A stretch of DNA of 64,000 bases, taken from contig NZ_QYYD01000010.1 of assembly GCF_003591005.1 (NCBI RefSeq), forward strand, positions 62,001-126,000. The letters are read 5' to 3'. Shown in pieces: positions 16,355 through 60,467 of the stretch; within the stretch, counting starts at the first letter, position 1; each line of letters opens with the position of its first letter. The position numbers and the translations under genes are program-made. Under the pieces are notes generated by a model. It had not been told where the DNA came from. It did not search any database and worked only from the letters and a program-made list of their open reading frames with translations. The DNA is from Rhodopseudomonas palustris (lineage in GTDB: Bacteria > Pseudomonadota > Alphaproteobacteria > Rhizobiales > Xanthobacteraceae).

Positions 16355-16441
16355 GTCATGCGCGGGCTTGACCCGCGCATCCATCACCGCGCAGCGGCTT
16401 TCTGTTTTGAGATGGATCGCCGGGTCATGCCTGGCGATGGC
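16355..16441. repeat. Palindromic repeat, GTCATGCSCGGGCTTG family, gene-free copy
   Basis: The left unit 16355-16385 (GTCATGCGCGGGCTTGACCC start, then GCGCATCCATC) is itself a palindrome. A diverged inverted unit occupies about 16411-16441. The sequence is closely related to the arms around the GIY-YIG gene at 23345-23709. Confidence 0.8.
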
Positions 16442-23287: not shown

Positions 23288-23344
23288 TACGAGCCACTTC
23301 AACAGCACCATCGTCATCGCCCGGCTTGACCGCCGACAAAGATC

Positions 23345-23709
23345 GTCATTGCCGGGCTTGACCCGGCAATCCATCCTCTTCGGATGACCTACTGGGTATA
23401 CATCCTCGCCAGTCACCCAGGTGGAACGCTGTATGTCGGCGTGACCAACGACCTCGTGCGACGCATCTATGAGCATCGCGAGGGGCTCGCGGAAAGCTTC
23501 ACCAAGCGCTATCACATCAAAACTCTGGTCTACTTCGAAGCACACGACACGATCGCTGTCGCTCTCCAGCGCGAGAAAAACATCAAGCACTGGTCACGCG
23601 AGTGGAAGATCGATCTCATCGTCGCCGGCAATCCGGAGTGGCGAGATCTCTATGACGAAATTGTCCGCTGACGCGGACGATGGATTGCCGGGTCAAGCCC
23701 GGCAATGAC
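23345..23709. mobile_element. Candidate REP-like element: perfect 31-bp inverted repeats flanking a GIY-YIG gene
   Basis: Arms 23345-23375 (GTCATTGCCGGGCTTGACCC start, ending AATCCATC) and 23679-23709 are perfect 31-bp inverted copies. Each arm also contains its own inner palindrome (TTGCCGGG / CCCGGCAA). The 303 bases between them hold only the GIY-YIG frame. A partial extra copy precedes it near 23313-23334. Gene-free relatives occur at 16355-16441, 36276-36362 and 60343-60431. It interrupts the dnaN-recF spacing. Mobility is inference. Confidence 0.65.
23384..23671 (+). CDS. GIY-YIG domain nuclease-like protein
   Basis: This 95-residue protein is a single GIY-YIG domain of the YhbQ/UPF0213 kind: VYIL (5-8), YVGVTNDLVRRIYEH (17-31, with the conserved Arg), NIKHW and the C-terminal NPEWRDLY with the conserved Glu and Asn. 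GIY-YIG domains cut DNA in repair enzymes and mobile introns; stand-alone small members are poorly characterised. It sits exactly inside the 31-bp inverted repeats, nine bases from the left arm and seven from the right, so gene and repeats look like one unit. Confidence 0.88.
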   Translation: MTYWVYILASHPGGTLYVGVTNDLVRRIYEHREGLAESFTKRYHIKTLVYFEAHDTIAVALQREKNIKHWSREWKIDLIVAGNPEWRDLYDEIVR

Positions 23710-23736
23710 AGCTTCGGAACACGAACGTCCCTGCCG

Positions 23737-27544
<3,808 letters not shown>

Positions 27545-36275: not shown

Positions 36276-36362
36276 GTCATGCCCGCGCTTGTCGCGGGCA
36301 TCCACGCCTTGCTGACGAGTGACGAGAAAGGCGTGGATGGCCGGGACGAGCCCGGCCATGAC
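36276..36362. repeat. Palindromic repeat, GTCATGSCCG family, gene-free copy
   Basis: Units 36276-36310 (GTCATGCCCGCGCTTGTCGC start) and 36328-36362 are diverged inverted copies sharing ATCCACGCCTT / AAGGCGTGGAT at the inner ends. It lies between the convergent paoC and histidine kinase genes. Confidence 0.88.
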
Positions 36363-60054: not shown

Positions 60055-60467
60055 GTCTCCTCCTGGTCCGCTCGGCACCGTCTGCGCGATGCTTGCGGTT
60101 CACTCCCTCGCAGCCGTGCGGCTGCGATCAGCGCGGCCCAGCCTATTCGGCCGAGACGCACGCTTGATTATCGGCGAGCCGGGCGGCTCACGCGCTACGC
60201 CAACCATACATGCTGGCCCGCCGATGAGACGTGCGCTCAGCCGCGCATCCGCATGTGATTTTTGCAGGGTTGGAGTTGGGCTGGGCACGAGGGACCGAGC
60301 AGCGCGCACGGCACTCGCGGAAGGAAGATTGCCCCTCGACGCGTCATGGCCGGGCTTGTCCCGGCCATCCACGCCTTGCTGCGCATCAAGGCCTCAAAGG
60401 CGTGGATGCCCGGGACAAGCCCGGGCATGACGGAGTCAGCAATTTGTAGAGGGACGCAGCGCCCCGC
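60055..60467. other. Intergenic region with repeat, no gene seen
   Basis: These 413 bases between the binding protein and cynS contain the palindromic element at 60343-60431. The rest holds the start-side leader of the binding-protein gene; no coding sequence is supported. Confidence 0.6.
60343..60431. repeat. Palindromic repeat, GTCATGSCCG family, gene-free copy
   Basis: The left unit (GTCATGGCCGGGCTTGTCCC start, then ATCCACGCCTT) and the right unit (AAGGCGTGGATGCCCGGGACA start) form an inverted pair, matching 36276-36362 closely. It lies downstream of cynS. Confidence 0.88.

Follow-up and report, generated by a model that had tools for sequence, protein, structure and literature searches.

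Why should a small nuclease gene lie in the spacer between dnaN and recF, tightly enclosed by two palindromes? The gene, a GIY-YIG ORF of 95 aa, was found in the dnaN-recF spacer of the window (the entire 64-kb stretch of DNA that was analyzed). The arms on its two sides (GTCATTGCCGGGCTTGACCCGGCAATCCATC) are exact reverse complements over 31 bases, as claimed in the preliminary description, and an extended alignment of the two covers 34 nt at 97%. Each arm also forms, as had been proposed, a REP-like hairpin of its own, with a 9-bp stem (ATTGCCGGG/CCCGGCAAT) and the loop CTTGA. Nine spare bases upstream of the gene and seven downstream had been counted; the downstream gap is indeed seven, while the upstream gap measures 8 bases. 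Gene-free relatives of the arm, which had also been announced, were located in the window as two pairs and a single copy, differing from the arm by 5-7 mismatches (Table 1). The same mismatch limit gave no match in 20 single-base shuffles of the window.

Table 1. Palindromic repeats and the GIY-YIG gene in the 64-kb window.
Feature	Position	Strand	Remarks
Left arm, CGTC-type REP	23345..23375	+	tag CGTC 23344-23347; stem 23348-23356/23362-23370; loop CTTGA; tail CCATC toward gene
GIY-YIG nuclease gene, 95 aa	23384..23671	+	Pfam PF01541, E 5.8e-15
Right arm, exact inverted copy of left arm	23679..23709	-	outer tag TGTC
Degenerate REP-like copy directly 5' of left arm, same orientation	23310..23331	+	direct repeat, 91% over 22 nt
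Gene-less head-to-head REP pair	16356..16440	16356-16385 +, 16411-16440 -	arm-similarity search of window
Gene-less head-to-head REP pair	60344..60430	60344-60373 +, 60401-60430 -	arm-similarity search of window
Single REP	36332..36361	-	arm-similarity search of window

According to the available text of Di Nocera 2013 (PMC3733652), CGTC-tagged REPs are recognized by a CGTC (or TGTC/CCTC) tag, a stem of 8-9 bp starting with A and T, a loop of 4-5 nt and a CCA-like tail. Their reported range extends over every alphaproteobacterial order and several phyla; dRS3 of Neisseria and RPE-4/RPE-6 of Rickettsia are among them. The arms share the tag (CGTC on the left, TGTC on the right), the stem (9 bp, beginning with A and T), the loop (5 nt, CTTGA) and the tail (CCATC). 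A stem-neutral REP pattern has 196 exact matches in the host genome, and the reversed pattern has none. Among the 100 of these 196 places that were listed, all five REP pairs within 250 bp are oriented head to head, with the tags pointing outward. A high-copy interspersed repeat, often in head-to-head pairs, is a trait of the CGTC-REP superfamily, and it is seen in the host. The same text reports no dedicated transposase for these repeats and leaves the question of their mobilizer open, and CGTC-REPs as published there are without an enzyme; a nuclease gene as their partner is the addition made here.

To define matched arms, the best inverted match between the 120 bp upstream and the 120 bp downstream of a gene was used as the arm score, with a threshold of 16. 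From the GTDB family of the host 93 genes were collected, 91 of them distinct, which gave 90 loci with full flanks; neighboring ORFs of at least 150 aa (n=406) served as the control. Matched arms were found at 60/90 family loci (score of at least 20 in 51/90), but around just 2/406 neighboring ORFs, and the framing is therefore not a product of chance. In the 60 armed loci the median distance between arm and gene is 14 bp on the upstream side and 6 bp on the downstream side, both gaps being at most 30 bp in 47 of them. Perfect hairpins with a stem of at least 9 occurred on both sides in 51 family loci, on one side in 29 and on neither side in 10, compared to 1, 62 and 311, respectively, of 374 control ORFs. 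A wide scan of the genomes of 84,980 species, limited to the best 80 loci (79 with testable flanks), gave a score of at least 16 in 44/79 loci versus 3/369 control ORFs. The loci below the threshold number 30/90 in the family and 35/79 in the wide scan. Arms around other GIY-YIG copies, on which the preliminary description had staked its interpretation, are therefore common; the original observation is confirmed and is larger than stated.

The armed loci of the wide scan are mostly alphaproteobacterial, with others in beta- and gammaproteobacteria and on contigs labelled Omnitrophus, LCP-89, Deltaproteobacteria, Calditrichaeota and Arenibacter, several of which are metagenome assemblies. The nearest named locus among the best 80 comes from a Rhodopseudomonas palustris MAG (93% identity; L170). 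Plasmids also carry such units: 8 of the 13 loci examined, out of 35 records in a plasmid collection, score at least 16. By comparison, this inverted-repeat score was reached by 2/11 negative-control GIY-YIG genes from outside the subfamily, so that this control was not entirely clean, and the URI-like genes (four of these 11, plus L033 of the host genome) do not exceed 10. The host genome has six PF01541 matches, three of them in the subfamily under study. All three subfamily copies have self-matching arms, built from three different palindromes, while two other PF01541 genes, L033 and L034 (the latter also scoring at most 10), have no matched arms; the UvrC-like L036, whose 3' end is outside the locus, was left out.

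The correspondence of arms and enzymes was examined in 53 elements from 19 genomes with at least two copies. The median score of an enzyme's own arms was 23, compared to 8 for cross pairings between copies of the same genome. A score of at least 16 was reached by 40/53 own pairings versus 29% of the cross pairings, the own pairing exceeded every same-genome cross pairing in 34/53 elements, and none of 1000 within-genome permutations reached the observed mean. When left and right arms were shuffled across all family loci, 36% of the pairs still reached 16, owing to the similarity of arms throughout the family, which the within-genome test addresses only in part. In 40 of the 90 elements the arms could be parsed and had equal geometry. 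The left and right arms differed at 38 stem pairs in 22 of these 40 elements, and 36/38 were two-sided changes that keep the pairing, a proportion biased upward by the parser, which accepts at most one unpaired position. The mean difference between 8-nt tails in the 40 elements was 1.3 for the two tails of one element and 3.8 for tails of different elements. When mapped on a tree of 88 protein copies, the tail classes required 22 changes, compared to 49.7 after shuffling (0/200 as low); classes CCAT, CCAC and CCCG were each clustered on the tree (0/500), while CCAG was not (47/500). The best pair of copies within a genome is 47-76% identical in 17/19 genomes, and 82% and 91% identical in the other two, and recent gene duplicates are rare.

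In one genome, two divergently placed GIY-YIG units (L080 and L097; G127:C1:1478497-1480008) lie approximately 1 kb apart, with differing stems and near-identical tails.

The best explanation, and in our judgment a probable one, is mobilization by the GIY-YIG enzyme; the system would resemble RAYT/REPIN, with an Slx1/UPF0213-like nuclease at its core. Within the CGTC-tagged REP family the arm-gene-arm unit would be the form that carries the gene, and the 95-aa nuclease an enzyme dedicated to its own palindrome, with single REPs and head-to-head REP pairs as gene-less derivatives, as REPINs are for RAYTs. In the proposed scheme (i) an arm would become single-stranded or be extruded as a hairpin, e.g. 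during replication, (ii) the nuclease would recognize the stem, loop and tail and introduce a nick at the outer CGTC tag or close to it, and (iii) host repair would copy or paste the freed unit elsewhere or reseal the donor. Since GIY-YIG enzymes cut by hydrolysis, pasting would need the help of the host. The donor would be left with nothing, with a composite palindrome (collapse between the arms) or with a shortened gene-less pair (internal deletion). As an outcome, relatives differ in their units and pairs, arms outlast decaying genes, and gene-less pairs retain their head-to-head orientation. The association of enzyme and repeat was observed at several levels: the unit exists and recurs, its arms correspond to its enzyme, gene and REPs occur together, genes have decayed between persisting arms, and in one genome a whole unit was duplicated. 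Binding, cutting and enzyme-driven movement are what we infer from it. The idea that this one gene is self-mobilizing may be wrong: the repeats may move more than the gene, because the copies within a genome are mostly diverged, as reported for RAYTs.

The site polymorphism expected by the preliminary description was found at dnaN-recF, where 15 of 16 genomes of the genus could be typed. The unit is intact in two (G000, G198), four have kept both arms but lost the gene through an internal deletion (G190, G156, G028, G202), and nine hold other sequence: a different REP pair (4), a DUF559 gene in long palindromic arms (3) or a gene-less pair of the DUF559 type (2). An intact unit occupies the same position in a genome of another genus (G050). 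The precise empty site that had been anticipated did not materialize: among the genus relatives no scar-free site with a duplicated target was found, owing to the variability of the spacer. At the site of a second unit of the host genome, the unit is present in 3 of the 16 genomes compared; one REP stands there in 3 others, nothing but a short spacer in 4, and some other sequence in the remaining 6. In Sphingobium plasmids the gene lies between fnrL and a regulator in 7/11 records and is absent from the other four. Three of the seven filled records and all four gene-less records were compared. Two of the latter contain a single composite palindrome, a fusion of CGTCACCCCGGG and TCAAGCCCGGGGTGACG or a mutated version, whose sequence corresponds to the outer half of each arm; the other two have no REP. 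No clear target-site duplication was seen at the sites compared (dnaN-recF, the second own-genome unit and the Sphingobium plasmids), the flanks of which are variable, and a search for empty sites of the units on a Rhizobium CIAT894 plasmid and Novosphingobium pNL2 returned no informative relative.

A duplicated unit was found on different contigs of one genome (L290 and L298; 88.6% over 376 nt). According to BLAST, the shared stretch extends 4 bases beyond the left tag and 1 base beyond the right one (approximately 15 further in a gapped alignment), and the flanks have no other similarity within ∼1.4 kb on each side. This duplication provides the cleanest unit boundaries, and the Sphingobium plasmids the cleanest gene-less allele.

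The internally deleted alleles bear on the main rival explanation, homing, since they keep the gene ends inside the arms and thus derive from a full unit. Under homing, the nuclease gene would invade existing head-to-head REP pairs: the enzyme would cut gene-less pairs, repair would copy the gene in, and the arms would be the target and not the ends of a mobile unit. The arms do have the orientation of gene-less pairs (5/5 in the host genome within 250 bp, among 100 of 196 places listed), and GIY-YIG homing endonucleases exist according to the available text of PMC1564403. Those enzymes, such as I-TevI, share the catalytic domain and a selfish behavior with the present system, but they lie in an intron or intein or carry a NUMOD DNA-binding domain, whereas the gene described here encodes a single domain of 95 aa in an intergenic spacer, with no intron or NUMOD and a palindromic frame. 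At the second own-genome locus none of the relatives has a plain head-to-head pair, while three have one REP, and the arm tails belong to enzyme clades. Homing is for these reasons an unlikely account of the unit.

Two-tag composite palindromes (GTCATNNCCGGG-N5-CCCGGNNATGAC), resembling collapsed REP pairs, were observed in 86/198 family genomes (control 0), with five places in the host; the halves are mismatched in 25 of the 75 listed, as unlike arms would lead one to expect. Excision may have left these palindromes as scars, although replication slippage would give the same product. The dnaN-recF spacer itself (23288-23738 of the window, and its relatives) is a hot spot: small palindromic elements of at least three different kinds occupy it in the 16 genomes of a single genus.

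A Pfam scan of the 95-aa protein returned only the GIY-YIG domain (PF01541, E 5.8e-15). The catalytic residues of GIY-YIG enzymes are Tyr, Arg and Glu. Across 45 diverse homologues Y6, Y17, G19, R27, H31, E64 and N83 are invariant, and Y6, Y17, R27 and E64 thus place the protein in the GIY-YIG superfamily. The AlphaFold model has a pLDDT of 90.4, and the best PDB matches, by profile and by fold, are UPF0213 proteins (1zg2, 1ywl) followed by Slx1, so that in both fold and sequence the protein is nearest to the UPF0213/Slx1 group. The single-domain GIY-YIG fold is common to this protein and to UPF0213/bacterial Slx1-like proteins. In the available text of Dunin-Horkawicz 2006 (PMC1564403), standalone bacterial GIY-YIG proteins are grouped with Slx1, a structure-specific nuclease for branched DNA. 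The Slx1 group is described there as lacking a C-terminal Asn, whereas N83 is invariant in the 45 homologues, with no equivalence of the two positions implied; that description, as far as the text is available, includes no association with repeats, which is present around the gene studied here. An NCBIfam search assigned the protein to no family. A role as a defense gene was rejected, the protein having no match in PADLOC, and a phage gene was set aside (one weak PHROG match, function unknown).

The dN/dS of the gene is 0.03 against one relative, for which dS is close to saturation, and 0.07 against another; for L290 versus L298 it is 0.11. These values indicate strong purifying selection. Such constraint, like the similarity in fold to Slx1, a nuclease of branched DNA (PMC1564403, available text), would suit a host-domesticated nuclease that resolves or trims REP cruciforms, with its own gene kept near REPs for regulation and the REPs spread by other means. 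This explanation, quite improbable in our assessment, leaves unaccounted for the presence of one enzyme clade per arm class, the presence/absence pattern at orthologous sites and the duplication of a whole unit.

Mobilization by the GIY-YIG enzyme was also considered in relation to the REP load of 198 family genomes, 142 with a close GIY-YIG homologue and 56 without. The median number of REPs is 26.5 in genomes with the gene and 6 in those without it (p 1e-9; within-genus permutation p 0.0005), and in 15/18 genera with both states the REP median is higher with the gene. The exceptions are 11 gene-less genomes with at least 20 REPs and 7 gene-bearing genomes with at most 2. Arms and REPs of the same genome are in agreement as to loop type (A or T): of 37 typed loci 35 were used, and the median A fraction is 0.44 for the 17 A-type loci versus 0.15 for the 18 T-type loci (one-sided p 0.002; the loci are not fully independent). 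That the REPs are instead moved by a RAYT (Y1 transposase), with the GIY-YIG gene as a passenger, is very improbable. The host has two weak Y1_Tnp matches, but Y1_Tnp is present in 46/198 genomes, the REP medians with and without this control family (24.5 vs 14.5) do not differ significantly (p 0.06), and no RAYT gene flanked by CGTC repeats was found by Di Nocera 2013, according to the available text (PMC3733652). Chance or composition, i.e. REPs that are abundant between genes (196 in the host) and happen to flank a small gene, is hardly credible and is ruled out as an artefact by the control ORFs (2/406 and 3/369 for matched arms, 1/374 for two-sided hairpins).

REP-associated tyrosine transposases (RAYTs) were reportedly described by Nunvar in 2010. 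The comparison with them made in the preliminary description holds in its logic: a small enzyme gene, its own palindrome and gene-less repeats, with a different enzyme family. In RAYT/REPIN systems (PMC3116915, PMC8266576; available text of both) a small enzyme gene also stands beside its own palindromic repeat, gene-less repeats are many and often form inverted pairs, enzyme and repeat co-diversify, and copies within a genome are distinct. The partial excision footprints of REPINs, which do not cover the whole REPIN in the available text of Bertels and Rainey 2011 (PMC3116915), can be likened to the composite palindromes described above, as possible excision scars. The RAYT enzyme, however, is of the HUH/Y1 type, whereas the Pfam scan gave GIY-YIG here, and RAYT-flanking REPs are tagged GTAG, whereas the arms carry CGTC/TGTC. 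Cleavage of single-stranded REP, a further trait of RAYTs, is a prediction for the present enzyme. The system is a variant of the RAYT/REP system in logic, but is no RAYT by enzyme and tag.

Searches of an open-access library found no paper that connects GIY-YIG proteins to REPs; preprints and most papers behind subscriptions were outside their scope, so priority is not proved. A term search of the text of the 2025 RepRanger paper (PMC12306157) found no mention of GIY-YIG, RAYT or transposase. The GIY-YIG enzyme is a strong candidate for the spreader of a large repeat family without a known enzyme. With a cognate single-domain nuclease in tight correspondence with its arms, the question of CGTC-REP mobilization becomes directly testable. 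If the explanation is true, the very common small GIY-YIG genes would acquire a function, and the enzyme-repeat partnership would extend beyond HUH enzymes.

Other nuclease genes were also observed beside palindromes. In three genomes (G201, G089, G199) the dnaN-recF spacer contains an endonuclease-like DUF559 gene (PF04480, E 5.8e-36; L310, L312:987-1472, L313) framed by 28-nt perfect inverted palindromic arms (ACCCTCTCCCCTTGTGGGAGAGGGTGGC), and a gene-less pair of this type is present in L322 and L323; to judge by these loci, DUF559 is another nuclease family that has palindromes of its own. Seven of the 11 negative-control genes form a second subfamily of GIY-YIG genes (YILRCADGSFYVG type; L354-L358, L360, L362), which stands beside a different palindromic repeat (TCATCCTGAGG...CTCGAAGGATGA) in 7/7 loci, on both sides in 5/7. 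It is possible, if still somewhat doubtful, that single-domain nucleases of several unrelated folds each own and spread a palindromic repeat family: GIY-YIG subfamily A with CGTC-REPs, the second GIY-YIG subfamily with TCATCCTGAGG/CTCGAAGGATGA, and DUF559 (PF04480) with CCCTCTCCC/GGGAGAGGG. They would then form a new class of minimal mobile element, with a hydrolytic structure-selective nuclease in place of a transposase, and the enzyme that the CGTC-REPs, dRS3 and RPE among them, have lacked so far would be found.

Finally, Neisseria gonorrhoeae (NZ_CP119142.1; L161) has a homologue of the GIY-YIG gene with a dRS3-like palindrome 2 bases downstream; the homologue seems to start with a codon other than ATG, and the feature table used has no annotation at its position.
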